NCBI RefSeq assembly: GCF_001192795.1
Contig: NZ_DF968179.1
Location: 124,001 to 188,000, forward strand
Direction of reading: 5' to 3'
Source of the DNA: Flexilinea flocculi
Lineage (GTDB): Bacteria; Chloroflexota; Anaerolineae; Anaerolineales; Anaerolineaceae
DNA: 64,000 bases
Shown here one piece after another: positions 4,539 through 61,468 of this stretch. The stretch's first letter is position 1. Every line of letters begins with the position of its first letter. The notes under the pieces are model-generated. The model was not told the DNA's origin, made no database searches, and was given only the letters and a program-made list of their open reading frames with translations. Both the position numbers and the translations under genes were made by a program.

Positions 4539-4712
4539 TCACTGTATCAGGTACTATTACCGTAATTCGAAATAAGGATTGACTTTTTGAATAAAGAAAG
4601 AAAATTTGTTGTTCTTACAATTTTGCGCTTTGCGCAAAACCGTAAGAACAACAATGGGTTCTTTTCAGATTTCGAATCACATGTACTATTATAAAAGAGC
4701 CTGATACAGTGA
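4539..4712 (-). repeat. dnaK-downstream stem-loop split by an insertion
   Basis: Two 13-bp arms, TCACTGTATCAGG (4539-4551) and CCTGATACAGTGA (4700-4712), are exact inverse complements, just after the dnaK stop. Removing the insertion and one 9-bp direct repeat brings them to a 13-bp stem with a 16-base loop. The ancestral site therefore looks like a terminator or mRNA-processing hairpin between dnaK and dnaJ. Confidence 0.75.
4560..4682 (-). mobile_element. complete MITE-like element with 9-bp target repeat
   Basis: A 123-bp copy with terminal repeats CCGTAATTCGAAAT and (inverse) ATGTGATTCGAAAT. It is flanked by perfect direct repeats GTACTATTA at 4551-4559 and 4683-4691. The central hairpin arms TTGTTGTTCTTAC and GTAAGAACAACAA enclose a TTTTGCGC/GCGCAAAA inner stem. 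It is inserted in the loop of the stem-loop downstream of dnaK. It carries no coding sequence. Confidence 0.85.
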
Positions 4713-11741: not shown

Positions 11742-11864
11742 TAGCAATTTGAAATAAGGAGATTCTTTTCGATTAGCGAGAGAAAATATGTTGTTGTGGA
11801 GTTTTTGCGCGAAGCGCAAAAACTCCACAACAACAATTATTTTTTCCCATACTTCGAATCGCTG
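11742..11864 (-). mobile_element. complete MITE-like element
   Basis: A 123-bp copy with terminal repeats AGCAATTTGAAAT and CTTCGAATCGCTG. The central hairpin is perfect: TGTTGTTGTGGAGTTTTT paired with its complement around a GCGC-GAA-GCGC tip. Flanks AAAAAAATC and AAAAAAACC form an 8-of-9 target repeat, though low complexity weakens this. Confidence 0.8.
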
Positions 11865-15996: not shown

Positions 15997-17646
15997 ATGA
16001 AATTTATCCAAAACCATAAACAAAGCATTTTTTTTTACAGCAGTCTGATCCTTTTTGTAATGCTTGCTTTGGTTGTACGCTTGCATGATTTTGGTACATA
16101 TCCGGCGGATATCAATTGCGATGAAGCCATGGCTGCTGTTGAAGCTATGGCAATTATCGAAAATGGTACCGATCAATATGGTACATCTTATCCGGTTTAT
16201 TTTGAAGCCTGGGGACATGGACAGATGAATGCGCTGCTCATTTATCTCCTAGCAGGTGCGATGAAGCTGTTTGGTTCGGGAATGACTGTTGTGCGGCTTC
16301 CTATGTTGCTATTCAGCCTGGCAGGAATTGCAGCGATCACCTGGATTGCGTGGATGTTGTTTTCGAAGGAAGCAGCTTTATTTGTCCTTGCGTTTGCCGC
16401 AATCAATCCATGGCACATCATGCTCAGCCGATGGTCATTAGAGAGCAATTTGTTTCCGCATTGTCTGGTGATCGGATTGGCTTTGTTGATTTATTCAATG
16501 AAAAACAGAAAATTGTTCTTTTTTTGTCTATCAATGATCTGTTATGCGATTTCGCTCTACGCATATGGTGTTGCCTATGCTTTTGTGCCGGTATTTCTGG
16601 TTCTAACCTATATTTTTCTTTATAGAATAAAAATTTTCAATTTTTCAGCGCTGGTGATTGGCGGATTATGTTTTCTTTTATTCGCCTGGCCGATTATCTT
16701 GATGATGATCATCAATTTTTTCCATCTGAAAACGATATTAATTGGTCCAATTTCGATCCAATTATTTGAAAAGACTACCCGAACAACCGATTTGATTTTT
16801 TCCTCCGATAATTTCCCTGTTCAATTACTGAATAATTTGAGACATTTTTTTGACATTGTGATTCTGCAAAAGATGGATTTCTGGTGGAATCAACTGCCGA
16901 AAATTGGGCCGATGTACAAGATTACTCTGCCATTTTTTCTGATTGGTTGTGTCATTTCAATCAAAGGAATATGGCTCAATAGAAAAACAGAGCAACAAGA
17001 TTTTCAAAAAAAGGGGATTTGGGTTTTGGTGATCCATTTATTTTCTTCTTTTATTTCCGGATTGATTATCAACAATGTGAATGTGAACCGGATCAACAGT
17101 ATTTTTTATATCCTCATCCTTTTTAGCGCTGTTGGAATTTATGGAATAACTTTAAAAAAGCGCCCTGTCGGCGGCATCATAGCAGTGCTTTATGGTTTTT
17201 GTTTCCTGTTTTTTTGTTATCGTTATTTTTACAGCGAAGATCGTTATTATCTCAACTATGCCTATGACAAGGGATTTGAAAAAATCATTTTACAAACATC
17301 AGATTTTCATTCGGAACCCGTTTGTATCTCAATAAGATCACATCGACCTCGACACAAGATCATTGATGTCTATTTAAAGTATTTCCTGCACCTTCCATAT
17401 CGCTACTATTCGGGGATGATGGACCATGACGAATTGATACAAAGTGGATATGCATTACCATATACTGAAAAATATTATATTTTTGATAATCTTGAAAAAA
17501 CCTATTCGGATTTTTCGGATCGTTGTATCTATGTGATTAATATGCGCGATCGGGATTACTTTGATCGCAATCTTTTTACTGTGGAGACCGAGGATTTTTT
17601 CAGTATTGCGATACCAACCTCTCTCATAAATTCAGAAAATCAGTAA
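15997..17646 (+). CDS. GT39/PMT-like membrane glycosyltransferase (copy B')
   Basis: 549 residues from the ATG at 15997 (TTG at 15988 is an alternative). It is collinear with the upstream gene B and shares long identical blocks: SYPVYFEAWG, VRLPML, INPWHIM, FEKTTR, FWWNQLP, INNVNV and CYRYFYSEDR. The acidic pair is Asp42-Glu43. It is therefore a tandem duplicate with the same predicted role. The last codon and stop (CAG TAA, 17641-17646) lie within the terminal repeat of a MITE-like element, so the C-terminus was set by that insertion. Confidence 0.78.
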   Translation: MKFIQNHKQSIFFYSSLILFVMLALVVRLHDFGTYPADINCDEAMAAVEAMAIIENGTDQYGTSYPVYFEAWGHGQMNALLIYLLAGAMKLFGSGMTVVRLPMLLFSLAGIAAITWIAWMLFSKEAALFVLAFAAINPWHIMLSRWSLESNLFPHCLVIGLALLIYSMKNRKLFFFCLSMICYAISLYAYGVAYAFVPVFLVLTYIFLYRIKIFNFSALVIGGLCFLLFAWPIILMMIINFFHLKTILIGPISIQLFEKTTRTTDLIFSSDNFPVQLLNNLRHFFDIVILQKMDFWWNQLPKIGPMYKITLPFFLIGCVISIKGIWLNRKTEQQDFQKKGIWVLVIHLFSSFISGLIINNVNVNRINSIFYILILFSAVGIYGITLKKRPVGGIIAVLYGFCFLFFCYRYFYSEDRYYLNYAYDKGFEKIILQTSDFHSEPVCISIRSHRPRHKIIDVYLKYFLHLPYRYYSGMMDHDELIQSGYALPYTEKYYIFDNLEKTYSDFSDRCIYVINMRDRDYFDRNLFTVETEDFFSIAIPTSLINSENQ

Positions 17647-17720
17647 TTCGAATTTTTGAAAACCCTTTTGATCAAAAATAAATCAACAACAAATAATCCC
17701 TCTCATAATTCGAATCGCTG
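17641..17720 (-). mobile_element. hairpin-deleted MITE copy overlapping a stop codon
   Basis: Ends CAGTAATTCGAA and TTCGAATCGCTG frame 80 bp with one remaining arm, CAACAACAAATAATCC. No 9-bp target repeat is recognisable. The left terminal repeat provides the last Gln codon and the TAA stop of the upstream gene. Confidence 0.75.
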
Positions 17721-20164: not shown

Positions 20165-20288
20165 CAGCAATTCAAAAAATGGAGAAGATTCTTTGTTGTT
20201 GTGATGTTTTTTTGTGAAGCGCAAAAACATCACAACAACAAGTTATTTCCGATTGATTCAAATACCAAGTTGATATTTCGAATTACTG
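20165..20288 (+). mobile_element. complete MITE-like element, type copy
   Basis: 124 bp with ends CAGCAATTCAAAA and ATTTCGAATTACTG. Perfect direct repeats GTACATAAC flank it at 20156-20164 and 20289-20297. The hairpin arms TTGTTGTTGTGATGTTTTT and the exact complement enclose a short tip. This is the cleanest forward copy. Confidence 0.9.
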
Positions 20289-32433: not shown

Positions 32434-32557
32434 CAGTGATTCGAAAAATGGGGAGGATTCTTTGTTGTTGTGATGTCTTTGCGCGTCGCGCAAAAACATC
32501 ACAACAACAAGTTTTTCCTTCATCATTCGCATAGCAAGTCTATATTTCGAATTGCTG
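32434..32557 (+). mobile_element. complete MITE-like element
   Basis: 124 bp, the same length as the type copy. Ends CAGTGATTCGAAAA and ATTTCGAATTGCTG. Flanks TCCCAGTCT (32425-32433) and TCCCAGCCT (32558-32566) match in 8 of 9. Hairpin arms TTGTTGTTGTGATG and complement surround a GCGC-GTC-GCGC tip. It separates the tRNA-Arg promoter from ogt. Confidence 0.87.
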
Positions 32558-34250: not shown

Positions 34251-34275
34251 TCAATTAATTTCAACAATCACAACG

Positions 34276-34390
34276 ATTCAGGTTTTGATGTATCTTTCGA
34301 AAGGAAAATAAAAATTGGTTGTTCGATTGTTTTTACGCAAAGCGCAAAAACAATCGAACAACCAATAATCCTTATCCTATTTCTGTCCGT
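34276..34390 (-). mobile_element. diverged MITE-like element with intact hairpin
   Basis: The hairpin (34315-34365) has arms TTGGTTGTTCGATTGTTTTT and the exact complement around a GCAAAGC tip. The outer ends (TATCTTTCGAAAGG and CCTATTTCTG) are diverged. It may also terminate transcription between these convergent genes. Confidence 0.65.
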
Positions 34391-34394
34391 TGAT

Positions 34395-35773: not shown

Positions 35774-35895
35774 CAACAATTTGACATATGGAAAGATTTT
35801 CTGAAAATAGACAGCAGTTTTTTGTTCAGTTGCTTTTAAGCGGAACGTAAAAGCAATCCAATAACAATTAATTTGTCCCTTTATTCAAATCGTTG
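35774..35895. mobile_element. diverged full-length MITE-like element
   Basis: About 122 bp with ends CAACAATTTGACAT and ATTCAAATCGTTG. The hairpin is reduced to TTGCTTTTA/TAAAAGCAA. Flanks GTTCCAGTT and ATTTCAGTT match in 7 of 9, consistent with an old insertion. Confidence 0.55.
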
Positions 35896-39700: not shown

Positions 39701-39823
39701 CAACAACGTGAAATATAGGGAGGATTCTTTATTGCTGTGATGGCTTTTCACGGAGTGCAAAACCATCACAATGACAAATCTTTCCTCTTTTCTTAAAGAG
39801 TTTTTCCAAAATTCGAATTACTG
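39701..39823 (+). mobile_element. diverged MITE-like element
   Basis: GGGAGGATTCTTTATTGCTGTGATGG and the downstream arm CCATCACA, each side of a CAC-GGA-GTG tip, match the forward consensus (quoted in parts: GAGGATTCTTT, GTGATGG). The right end is AATTCGAATTACTG; the left end is altered (CAACGTGAAAT). No 9-bp target repeat is visible. Confidence 0.7.
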
Positions 39824-39843
39824 ATCCGGATCATCGGATCAAT

Positions 39844-39890
39844 AAAAAAAAACGGGGACTTCAATAATCGGAAGCACCCGTTTTTTTTAT
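39844..39890. terminator. bidirectional terminator between trpS and a WD40-like gene
   Basis: An A9 tract, stem AACGGG/CCCGTT with inner TTC/GAA pairs, and a T8 tract fit termination on both strands. Confidence 0.85.
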
Positions 39891-41744: not shown

Positions 41745-41820
41745 CAGTAACTCGAAATATTTCCTTGCTATTCGAATCAATCATAACAACAAAGAATCCT
41801 CCCCATATTCCGAATCGCTG
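41745..41820 (-). mobile_element. hairpin-deleted MITE copy
   Basis: Ends CAGTAACTCGAAAT and TTCCGAATCGCTG frame 76 bp. It keeps one hairpin arm (ATAACAACAAAGAATCC) and the TATTCGAATCAAT stretch, the same deletion class as 10031-10117. It lies 41 bp upstream of radA. Confidence 0.7.
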
Positions 41821-43329: not shown

Positions 43330-43455
43330 CAGTAATTCGAAATTTGGAAAAACCTTTTGAGGAAAGAGAAAAATAGTTGTTGTGTTGTTTTGTGTTTTAA
43401 AAAAATTAGACAACAACAATTATTCCTTTCCATACTTTGAAACTTCGAATTGCCG
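43330..43455 (-). mobile_element. complete MITE-like element next to a ribosome site
   Basis: 126 bp with ends CAGTAATTCGAAAT and CTTCGAATTGCCG. Flanks GGAAATACG (43321-43329) and GGAAATAAG (43456-43464) match in 8 of 9. The hairpin is partly decayed (TTGTTGT/ACAACAA outer arms only). The right target repeat runs into the ribosome site of the next gene. Confidence 0.82.
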
Positions 43456-45031: not shown

Positions 45032-45155
45032 CGGCATTTCGAAATTTGCGAAAACAATTAATAACGAAGAAAGAAAAATAGATGTTGTGTTGTTTTTGCA
45101 TTTTGGGCAAAAACAACACAACATCAAATTATTCTCTCTATATTTCAAATAGCTC
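45032..45155 (-). mobile_element. complete MITE-like element between convergent genes
   Basis: 124 bp with ends CGGCATTTCGAAAT and ATTTCAAATAGCTC. Perfect 19-bp hairpin arms run from GATGTTGTGTTG to TTTTTGC, with exact complement around ATTTTGG. No clear target repeat. The hairpin may serve as a terminator for holA and the DUF3048 gene. Confidence 0.75.
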
Positions 45156-46571: not shown

Positions 46572-47005
46572 AATCCGCCTTCATGACTGATGTTATTACT
46601 ATAGCAGTGCTTTGATTCACAAGGAGCTGAATCATTCCGTGTCAATTTTTACAATTTGTCATCTGTGAAGTGTTATTCTGTTTTCTGCAGCCCATTTCAG
46701 CGCAGGTCTACTCCTATTTTACAACAGAAGTGTTCTGCAGCAGCAATTCGAAATAAGGATTGATTTTTCGAATAAAGAAAGAAAATTAGTTGTTGTGAAG
46801 TTTTTGCGCGAAGCGCAAAAATAAATGATTAATAAATAATTCTTTCCATAATTCGAATTTCTGGAAATATTGCACAATACTCTTTCGATAATAATTTCAA
46901 TTTCTACTGAATTCCTGAGTATTCAATATGCAAATGCACATTTTAGCTTTCTTGTTTTTTTCTATAATTCATATAAGTCAGGGAATCAAAAAGAAAGGAA
47001 AGAAA
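46572..47005. other. 434-bp intergenic stretch
   Basis: It holds one element copy (46741-46863). A TATAAT box at 46963-46968 could be the -10 of the transporter operon, but no good -35 is seen. Nothing recognisable lies in 46572-46740. Confidence 0.5.
46741..46863 (-). mobile_element. MITE-like element with one decayed hairpin arm
   Basis: 123 bp with ends CAGCAATTCGAAAT and ATTCGAATTTCTG. The first arm TTGTTGTGAAGTTTTTGCGC is intact, but the second has degenerated to AAATAAATGATTAATAAATAA-type text after GCGCAAAA. No target repeat was found. Confidence 0.75.
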
Positions 47006-57666: not shown

Positions 57667-57731
57667 CACCAATTCGAAATTTGAAAAGAAACTTTGTTAT
57701 TCGGTAAGTCAATCCATATTTCGAATTGCCG
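57667..57731. mobile_element. 65-bp hairpinless MITE derivative with target repeat
   Basis: Ends CACCAATTCGAAAT and ATTTCGAATTGCCG. Flanks AGAATGAAT (57658-57666) and AGAAGGAAT (57732-57740) match in 8 of 9. The whole central hairpin is gone. Confidence 0.78.
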
Positions 57732-58220: not shown

Positions 58221-60104
58221 ATGAAAACAAATTCTAAATACCTGCTTTGGATAATAATCACCATCTGTGTTCTGATGGTTTTCCCTGTATCAGCACAAGA
58301 TGATCAAACAATAATACCTTCGGATGTCGCGCTGCCATTGGATAATCCTGTCGCCATCGATGACATCGATGAACCTGGTGCGGATGGTGAAATTGGTCTG
58401 GCTTATCTTTCTTACAACACGACCGTAGGTACTTATGCTAAATGTTCCACAGATGCGTTTTTCTATATGTTACTGGTAAACGAATCATCGGAAAGCGCTT
58501 CAGTGGTTCTGCCGCGAAGAGCAAAAGTTCAAAATCAATATTATTATGTTGAGAACAGTGCCTATACATGCAAAGATGTCAATTATACGACATGGACTCA
58601 GGATAATTATGCGGATGCCAACGGAGGATCAGCTTGCGTTTTAGATGATAATGTTCTGGATTTGCCAGCCCATTCGGTGATTTCTGTCAGAGGGAAAGTG
58701 GTCAATTTTTCACATGAAATCAGCAGAGAGAACAAGACTGATTCGCTGTTGTATCAATTCGATATTCAAATTAATAACAAACGGAAAAATTCAGCAGGTG
58801 CGTTATATGAAGAAAGCGCCATCTGCAAAGCTTTGGAATTTTTGGAAGTTTCTGAAAATAATCGGATTGAAGGCGGATATTTTATTGATCCGACGGCAAG
58901 TAAATCATGTTCGATGAATTATTTTTTCATTGTTGAAAATAGTGATTTAATGTATTCCAATGTTGTCGAACTCCCACGTTGGATCGATTTGAATAACAAC
59001 CGTTGGAGTGTTGGCTGCAGTTATCTATACGACGGTTGTAAAATCTCCGGATTCCGCCATTATGCGTGGGCAATTCTCGAGGATGGCGCTGATTATCACA
59101 ATTTGAATTATCAGTTTTGTGATCAAGATCGTGCCTTTGGCAATAACTGCTACGAAGAAAACACACTCTGGTGGCTGCGCATTCCTCCACAGACAAAAAT
59201 TGCTGTTCGCGGTATGGTGAACAACCTTTGCGGTGATGCAGCTACGTATCCCTTCTTTGAAAATTATGTTCATGCGAGCTTTGAGATTAGTGATGCAGGC
59301 TCCAATAAATGGTGGGTTGATGGCGAAATTGCAGGGACTCCTCTCTCCAGCGCTGCTTCCAATTTAGAGGTAACTGCACCGCTCTATTCACAAATTTCCG
59401 ATCGTGACCCGGACGAGGAAGTCACTCGTTATCTTTTTGAAGATCCTTCATTAGGGCAAGATGAGCCGGTTTCAAACGAAACCGATGCAGTAAACCAGAC
59501 GGCTGTATCTTCACCGGCAGATATTGATCCGTTGTCCCGGAATGACGAGAGCTGGTATCGAATTGGTGATCCTGAATGCGATCATTTCTTCTGTCATGAT
59601 TTTCATCTGCCTCCAACCGGTTTCCCTGCAAATCGGATGACGTTATTGAATCAACAGCCAACAGAGCTTGCGTATAAGGATTTGGGTAATTACCAAATTG
59701 AAATTCCAGCTCTGGATGTAATATCGTCGATTGTGGGTGTTCCACAGCAGGGTGATACCTGGGCAGTTCAATGGCTGGGTGAGAATTCCGGCCTTTTGGA
59801 GGGATCTGAATTACCGGGTGAAGGATTGAGTGTCATCGCAGCGCATAACCATATTGATACCGGAACGGCAGGACCGTTTGCCATGCTGAGTACGATGGAA
59901 GAAAATGACCGTATCTTTATTCGTAAACCAGGCGGTGATCTGATGCAATATGCGGTTTCACAGAACCTTTTACTGAAACCGGAAGCGTTTTCTGATTTGA
60001 AAAATGTCGTTACGGAGAATTCTCTGGTTCTAATCACTTGCGAAAATGAATCCGTGGATGGCGGATATCTGAACCGTCGCATAATTATTGCCAATCCTTC
60101 CTGA
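58221..60104 (+). CDS. secreted protein with C-terminal sortase domain
   Basis: 627 residues. A signal peptide (MKTNSKYLLWIIITICVLMV to about SAQ) is followed by a large Cys-rich region (about 45-400, some ten cysteines) of unknown fold, a linker, and a sortase-like domain (about 485-627). Catalytic candidates are His542 in AAHNHID, Cys607 in LVLITCEN and Arg619/Arg620 in YLNRRIIIA. Sortases are transpeptidases on the outer face of the membrane. No LPxTG-type substrate is encoded nearby. Confidence 0.78.
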   Translation: MKTNSKYLLWIIITICVLMVFPVSAQDDQTIIPSDVALPLDNPVAIDDIDEPGADGEIGLAYLSYNTTVGTYAKCSTDAFFYMLLVNESSESASVVLPRRAKVQNQYYYVENSAYTCKDVNYTTWTQDNYADANGGSACVLDDNVLDLPAHSVISVRGKVVNFSHEISRENKTDSLLYQFDIQINNKRKNSAGALYEESAICKALEFLEVSENNRIEGGYFIDPTASKSCSMNYFFIVENSDLMYSNVVELPRWIDLNNNRWSVGCSYLYDGCKISGFRHYAWAILEDGADYHNLNYQFCDQDRAFGNNCYEENTLWWLRIPPQTKIAVRGMVNNLCGDAATYPFFENYVHASFEISDAGSNKWWVDGEIAGTPLSSAASNLEVTAPLYSQISDRDPDEEVTRYLFEDPSLGQDEPVSNETDAVNQTAVSSPADIDPLSRNDESWYRIGDPECDHFFCHDFHLPPTGFPANRMTLLNQQPTELAYKDLGNYQIEIPALDVISSIVGVPQQGDTWAVQWLGENSGLLEGSELPGEGLSVIAAHNHIDTGTAGPFAMLSTMEENDRIFIRKPGGDLMQYAVSQNLLLKPEAFSDLKNVVTENSLVLITCENESVDGGYLNRRIIIANPS

Positions 60105-61334: not shown

Positions 61335-61468
61335 CAGCCATTCGAAGACGATGGTTCGAAATATGTTGAGGGTTCTTTATGGTTGTGATGGCTTCATGCA
61401 AAGCCATCACAACAAAAAGTATTTTCTGATTAATTCGAAGAATAACAAGTCTATTTTTCGAATTACTG
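61335..61468 (+). mobile_element. MITE-like element with altered left end
   Basis: The right end CTATTTTTCGAATTACTG and the hairpin GTTGTGATGGCTT/AAGCCATCACAAC are intact. The left end has two TTCGAA motifs close together, as if partly duplicated, giving about 134 bp. No target repeat is visible. Confidence 0.72.

Follow-up and report, generated by a model that had tools for sequence, protein, structure and literature searches.

Co-varying hairpin arms in a decaying MITE family of Flexilinea flocculi and their probable homogenisation by short template switches

Introduction

The Correia elements (NEMIS) of Neisseria are MITEs of approximately 100–150 nt that have inverted ends and lie in intergenic regions; their ends differ from those of the family described here, and we know of no comparable central hairpin with co-varying arms within them. 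Another class of short, dispersed elements comprises the REPINs and REP sequences, which the relevant parts of the published accounts describe as intergenic, palindromic and mobile, with compensatory changes in their stems (PMC3116915; PMC3733652). These properties are shared by the family reported here, whereas its consensus lacks, by inspection, the GTAG/CGTC tag and its copies are accompanied by 9-bp target duplications.

The correction of imperfect palindromes by template switching is also already known (PMC8794818; PMC7202029; PMC8604942; PMC3820800). In this process, the two arms are made complementary by copying, the loop can be inverted and a G·U intermediate is unneeded, features that recur in the present data; the cases described concern RNA genes, reporters and coding genes, whereas the present case is a dispersed transposon with parallel, apparently non-functional copies. 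Natural examples of this mutational process, known as quasipalindrome correction, that involve multiple copies are few, and a natural, multi-copy record of arm homogenisation is a variant of interest. No description of the MITE family was found among the listed open-access PMC papers on MITEs (those of Chloroflexi included), REPs, quasipalindromes and Flexilinea, and, as far as these literature searches reach, it is a new family of a known element type.

The hairpins of the window

The window is a stretch of 64,000 nt from Flexilinea flocculi (contig NZ_DF968179.1, positions 124,001–188,000), in which a sequence-only reading had described a family of dispersed hairpins with arms that vary between copies and stay complementary within each copy. 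The focal hairpin was confirmed at 34314–34366, and the remaining named copies are also present (Table 1); of the coordinates that had been quoted for the copies, 4560, 11742, 20165, 32434, 39701 and 45032 mark where the elements, and not the hairpins, begin, and 61335 is corrected to 61349. The assertion that the opposite arm carries the exact complement holds for the quoted box in 8 of the 8 named copies and fails for adjacent stem bases, where two A·C mispairs lie beside the CTTAC box of the 4560 copy, a C·A mispair is present in the 32434 copy and mismatches occur at the apex of the 20165 copy. More-decayed copies with broken stems, which that reading did not mention, are numerous. The focal copy combines a near-perfect stem with ends of only 10/18 identity and is a favourable case, not a typical old one. 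An RNA family search of the window returned only three tRNAs at gathering scores, and the hairpins match no known family. A de novo hairpin search (score ≥14) of 400 kb of the F. flocculi genome returned 70 hairpins, or 52 after removal of 18 N runs, some of which come from outside the family, compared with 15 in an approximate control consisting of one second-order Markov sequence derived from the same DNA with N runs included.

Table 1. Elements and hairpins located in the window.
Feature	Position	Strand	Remarks
Full element, box CTTAC	4560..4682	-	target duplication GTACTATTA 9/9
Full element, box GGAG, perfect 22-bp stem	11742..11864	-	target duplication 8/9
Element without hairpin, end-to-end gap 44	17641..17720	.	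gap-44 element listed at the syntenic place in G010
Full element, box GATG	20165..20288	+	target duplication GTACATAAC 9/9
Full element, box GATG	32434..32557	+	target duplication 8/9
Focal element, eroded, ~122 nt	34271..34392	-	frame from spacing; each end 10/18 to consensus; no target duplication left
Focal hairpin	34314..34366	.	25-nt arms, 3-nt loop aaa, box CGATTG, one A·C mispair
Older full-length element	35774..35895	-	target duplication 7/9
Full-length element, box GATGG, decayed stem	39701..39823	+	no target duplication
Element without hairpin, gap 40	41745..41820	.	
Full element, gap 90, poor stem	43330..43455	-	target duplication 8/9
Full element, box GTTG	45032..45155	-	no clear target duplication (3/9)
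Full-length element with largely broken stem	46741..46863	-	no clear target duplication (3/9)
Element without hairpin, gap 29	57667..57731	.	
Full element, gap 84, box GATGG	61349..61468	+	target duplication unclear (5/9)

A MITE family with 9-bp target duplications

Each hairpin forms the palindromic core of a member of a family of non-autonomous transposons (MITEs) of ~123 nt that generate 9-bp target duplications, a surrounding element that was absent from the sequence-only reading and was recognised from the flanks of family-like hairpins in the 400-kb search. The element consists of the end CAGYRATTCGAAATATGG, a short spacer of ~10 nt, a hairpin of ~49 nt, a long spacer of ~28 nt and the end CCATATTTCGAATYRCTG; the inverted ends are 18 nt long, and the unequal spacers give the element an orientation. 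Genome-wide matches to the end pattern (≤2 mismatches) number 399 in the forward and 467 in the reverse direction, and a backwards control gave 0 and 0. Among inward-facing pairs of ends less than 400 nt apart (864 kb), the gap peaks sharply at 87 (33 pairs) and 88 (18 pairs), and a second, broader class with gaps of ~25–46 is missing the hairpin. In 1.144 Mb of the F. flocculi genome, 184 full-length candidates were found, 145 of which pass stricter limits on the ends and retain 12 or more of the 20 stem pairs; by extrapolation from these 1.144 Mb, the family is estimated at several hundred copies in the whole genome.

The duplications were examined in 94 full-length elements, in which the left and right 9-bp flanks are identical at a fraction of 0.585, compared with 0.287 ± 0.015 upon random re-pairing, and seven perfect duplications are present where 0.06 are expected. 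The signal at other lengths from 2 to 12 is far weaker, the runner-up of 8 bp (0.340 vs. 0.285 ± 0.016) overlapping the 9-bp signal. The ten window elements examined besides the focal one score 9/9 (two), 8/9 (three), 7/9 (one) and 0–5/9 (four). Empty sites with a single copy of the target were found in the relative Flexilinea sp. MAG MO118 (hereafter G010) for the elements at C2:52282 and C2:99914 of F. flocculi, both of which are shortened copies with gaps of 41 and 71 instead of 87. The family has the features of a MITE, namely terminal inverted repeats, a target-site duplication, the lack of a gene and an autonomous relative with the same ends (see below). Identity with integron attC sites was rejected on the argument that the copies are dispersed and carry 9-bp duplications.

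Distribution in relatives

A scan of named genomes, which may leave out the records of the window genome itself, returned 39 stretches, 38 of them in G010 and one in a contig labelled Verrucomicrobia UBA1412. The latter (L093:7537-7654; DBPU01000094.1) is a single well-preserved element, the placement of which may reflect a binning error or a transfer. A covariance model, with scoring limited to 58 per genome, gave matches at or next to this number in three genomes (at least 58 in G000, at least 58 in G010 and at least 57 in G003), nine in G008, one in G002 and no match in the remaining 56 of the 61 genomes. G028, which belongs to another genus of the same family, shows 44 matches to the end pattern and no match to the full-element model, and might harbour another element that shares these ends. 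G010 is syntenic with the F. flocculi genome, the longer matches being mostly 74–91% identical. Around the MITEs at C2:13550, C3:842558, C3:1164500 and C1:135742 of F. flocculi, the flanks match C11, C9, C2 and C64 of G010 at 91.5–100%, which, amid the lower identity of most longer matches, suggests recent exchange of those segments.

A putative driver insertion sequence

A 1,632-bp insertion sequence with an ISNCY-like transposase, located through a DDE-family search at C1:421509-423140 of the F. flocculi genome (L166:821-2452), is the likely driver of the MITE, as judged from ends shared with the MITE, a perfect 9-bp duplication (GCATTCTGT) and an uninterrupted ORF of 452 aa. The sequence common to the MITE and this putative driver is only approximately the outer 18 nt. 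In Pfam, the 452-aa protein matched DDE_Tnp_1_assoc and DDE_Tnp_1, both below threshold; it had no match in NCBIfam and no relative in the PDB (best E 0.42). A tblastn search returned 13 plasmid records, and one homologue, WP_013335080.1 from a Gloeothece plasmid (36.6% identity over 93% of the query), is annotated as ISNCY family. Three further cyanobacterial plasmid homologues (38.9–39.6% identity) have the ends CAGCAATTC and perfect 9-bp duplications (three of the four examined), whereas no such ends or duplication were found around the Gloeothece copy that bears the ISNCY label. Compared with the ISNCY-annotated insertion sequences, the transposase is homologous and three of four homologues share the start of the ends and the duplication length, whereas the MITE itself is gene-less. 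The transposase gene is single-copy in F. flocculi and was not found in the incomplete assembly of G010, where the MITE may by now have lost nearly all mobility. An earlier search for long elements with the MITE ends, restricted to stretches that had been sampled and to matches of the duplication, yielded a single weak candidate per genome; no transposase was recognised in the best 40 of 365 long-element candidates, and nothing convincing was found in a search for inverted ends around a 42%-identical homologue in G059.

Joint change of the two arms

For comparison of the arms, 293 full-length elements from F. flocculi and G010 were used, of which 267 keep 12 or more of their 20 stem pairs. The effect of ancestry was reduced by choosing disjoint nearest-neighbour pairs on non-hairpin sequence only, and the main set comprises 66 pairs with an outer distance >0 and ≤0.2. 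In these contrasts, both arms differ at 96 stem positions, 85 of which are Watson–Crick in both copies, compared with an expectation of 15.8, and one arm alone differs at 58; without the stem filter (68 pairs), joint changes number 96 and one-arm changes 74. Among 63 F. flocculi copies selected from 97 references, 91.4% of stem cells pair, a figure somewhat inflated, like the other pairing figures, by a stem register chosen for maximal pairing. In a standard covariation count on the same 63 copies, double-change cells number 178, compared with 50.7 ± 5.5 in shuffled alignments and 19–40 when the partner column is slid. The arms co-vary beyond phylogeny.

Pairing declines with the decay of the ends. 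Over successive end-decay bins the paired fraction is 0.983, 0.899, 0.882, 0.815 and 0.650, where independent decay predicts 0.956, 0.863, 0.768, 0.689 and 0.621, and the oldest bin (eight elements) is near independence; this fall indicates that correction is partial.

Rewriting at shared insertion sites

By their flanks, 176 of 328 F. flocculi elements were mapped to G010; both flank matches lie within 30 nt of the element at 50 sites, and a candidate G010 element lies between the flanks at 21 of these. The element at C3:486088 was missed by the list and found by alignment. Alignments were inspected in two groups (25 and 19), only sites with both flanks reaching the element were kept (those with one poorly aligned flank, such as C2:29259, C2:72181 and C2:510570, were left out), and five informative sites were chosen by eye. 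Two shared sites, C2:13550, at which the element and 45 nt on each side are identical, and C3:842558, with flanks at 100%, are uninformative. Differences at shared sites were read without an outgroup and are unpolarised.

At C2:20172 (flanks 149/150 and 142/150), the right arm of the G010 copy is the perfect complement of the left, even at a base where the left arms of the two genomes differ, and the right arm of the F. flocculi copy is mispaired. The copies at C3:486088 read CCC/GGG in F. flocculi and TGT/ACA in G010, a block difference of several bases (CCC for TGT), and the inner stem of the G010 copy is broken. The entire box differs at C2:49002, where each copy is largely self-complementary, and an A-T pair is exchanged for T-A between the genomes at C2:77876. 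At C3:1164500 (flanks 299/300), 8 of 122 element positions differ and pairing is poor in both copies. Change in the element exceeds change in the flanks at p < 0.05 in four of the five sites (C3:1164500, p = 0.0003; C2:20172, p = 0.046; C3:486088, p = 0.00004; C2:49002, p = 0.013; C2:77876, p = 0.089). In-place rewriting of the hairpins, with complementary outcomes at four of the shared sites and not at C3:1164500, is directly observed, as is the joint change of the arms between copies.

Whole palindromes have also been lost. The window copy at 11742 is intact, and the syntenic site in G010 is without 77 nt including the hairpin; the ~55 nt shown on each side are identical, and the flanks overall match at 92.5% and 100%. 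Another such loss was found at C2:154009.

An origin of the variation in a few subfamilies, with ectopic gene conversion swapping whole hairpins between copies and no copying from arm to arm, would accord with the association of box type and flank type seen on inspection, and subfamily ancestry does explain part of the variation between copies; it leaves unexplained how new self-complementary boxes originate, and isolated single double changes are present between close copies. The self-complementary forms at C3:486088 (F. flocculi), C2:49002, C2:20172 and C2:77876 (G010) have no other match in the 2.37 Mb sampled, approximately one third of each of the two genomes. The absence of a second match for one form at four of the five shared sites argues, within this sampled third, against conversion from another copy. 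For the F. flocculi form at C2:49002, the pattern also occurs near C2:566114, and several other places match when the pattern is relaxed (GCATCG...CGATGC). We regard this explanation as unlikely.

Selection might instead act at transposition, if movement is limited to copies with good folding as single-stranded DNA, in the manner of REPINs or IS200, and live lineages thereby keep perfect stems. The best-preserved ends do go with the best stems, and in REPINs compensatory changes are common and a capacity to form hairpins has been invoked in the relevant part of that account (PMC3116915). The shared sites bear directly on this explanation, as the changes there arise in place. In addition, the matches of the linked transposase are weak and of DDE type, and the MITE family makes 9-bp duplications. 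To our knowledge, DDE-type transposases would not be expected to need a single-stranded hairpin. RAYT (Y1_Tnp, PF01797) was matched in none of the four genomes tested, a control being positive in 5 of 14; selection at transposition is about as improbable as an origin by conversion.

Mispairs, substitution spectra, rates and placement

Selection on an RNA structure tolerates G·U and not A·C pairs, and compensation through G·U yields transitions. Over the elements, G·T (173) and A·C (153) mispairs occur at similar frequency; for the 151 copies in tandem locations, G·U and A·C in the transcript frame number 99:84 (p = 0.30). Compensated changes are rich in transversions, with a transition:transversion ratio of 30:55 compared with 308:287 outside the stem (p = 0.005) and with 29:29 among one-arm changes (p = 0.087). 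The arms diverge as fast as their surroundings (0.126 vs. 0.137 for the outer sequence in the 66 contrasts; 0.146 vs. 0.148 for the ends and 0.162 for the spacers in a set of 83 contrasts), which is predicted by arm-to-arm copying and not by slow compensation through double mutants.

Placement was assessed with simple ORFs of at least 300 nt as gene calls, without a gene finder. Elements in tandem (94), convergent (15) and divergent (48) gaps are close to the numbers expected from intergenic length (97.0, 18.5 and 41.5, respectively). When expectation is based on gap counts, there is an excess in divergent gaps (48 vs. 30.8) and a deficit in convergent gaps (15 vs. 25.7), the opposite of what a terminator would predict. 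Orientation is random (49:45). A terminator role, considered since some window copies follow stop codons, was rejected on placement and orientation.

The explanation of every hairpin as a selected RNA structure (a terminator, stabiliser or processing site), with arms that covary by ordinary compensatory mutation, draws on the strong covariation in a standard test, the mostly intergenic location of the copies (only 13 of 159 lie more than 50% within a called ORF) and the stop codons upstream of several window copies, and is the least probable of those considered, given the lack of a clear G·U excess, the transversion-rich double changes, the divergence of the arms at the rate of the flanks, a placement that tracks intergenic length with random orientation, and a patchy presence in the genus.

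Possible footprints of template switching

The frequency of each loop trinucleotide is correlated with that of its reverse complement (r = 0.83), as against 0.03 for the reversed and 0.00 for the complemented loop, among the 126 of 293 elements with a GC-NNN-GC apex, and close pairs show a modest excess of reverse-complement loops (8 of 39 vs. 3.6 ± 1.7). Template switches often rewrite several bases at once. In the main set, adjacent compensated changes are not significantly clustered (11 vs. 8.2 ± 2.4; 0 vs. 0.8 ± 0.8 in the closest pairs), and some subsets tend towards clustering, those with at least 16 stem pairs numbering 11 vs. 5.6 ± 1.9 in F. flocculi and 13 vs. 8.7 ± 2.3 in G010. A first clustering figure (224 adjacent vs. 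204.7 ± 7.5) was discarded, as it was inflated by register shifts. Inversion of the loop is a footprint described for template switching in the relevant part of an earlier account (PMC8794818).

Proposed origin of the covariation

Taken together, the hairpins are probably best explained as the palindromic core of a decaying MITE that is homogenised in situ by short template switches, i.e., by quasipalindrome correction. Copies insert, putatively moved by the 452-aa transposase, and then decay; during replication, the nascent strand would fold back and copy the opposite arm, a mechanism that we infer from the pattern of change, such that any mutation confined to one arm is either lost or passed on to its partner. 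The arms would thereby drift at about the neutral rate with complementarity kept. Palindromes are also deleted, apparently by slippage at short repeats, which yields the copies without a hairpin. Of the two options in the sequence-only reading, copying of one arm from the other is favoured, in place at fixed insertion sites and with no need of transposition, and a selected fold is disfavoured by the mispair and substitution spectra, the rate of divergence and the genomic placement.

Covariation is standard evidence for a functional RNA fold, and here it is of textbook strength on decaying copies of a transposon in which the tests made reveal no selection on RNA and the rate and spectrum of substitution point to copying between arms. 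The MITE hence offers a concrete negative control when bacterial RNAs are sought by covariation. The many natural copies allow the rate, tract length and polarity of template switches to be measured. More generally, it is possible, as a tentative suggestion, that the covariation of dispersed bacterial hairpins (those of this MITE, and perhaps of REPINs and similar elements) is mainly mutational, arising by templated copying from arm to arm at a nearly neutral rate. If so, covariation alone would be no proof of a selected RNA, and a genome with hundreds of parallel copies would amount to a natural mutation-accumulation experiment. The suggestion bears on REPINs, the common compensatory stem changes of which were read as selection for hairpin formation.

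Additional repeats and genes

A stretch of ~105 nt in G010 (L059:6316-6420) recurs at no fewer than six places in the F. flocculi genome with 77–81% identity, and may be a variant of the MITE or a second repeat family. In the window, a terminator-like inverted repeat with a terminal T run (AAAAAAACGGG...CCCGTTTTTTT), unlike the MITE hairpins, lies at ~39842-39890, just past the 39701 element. A protein of 627 aa is encoded at 58221-60104 of the window, in this Chloroflexota genome, and its C-terminal part gives a sortase-like match of 36.2 bits, below the cut-off of 39.35.
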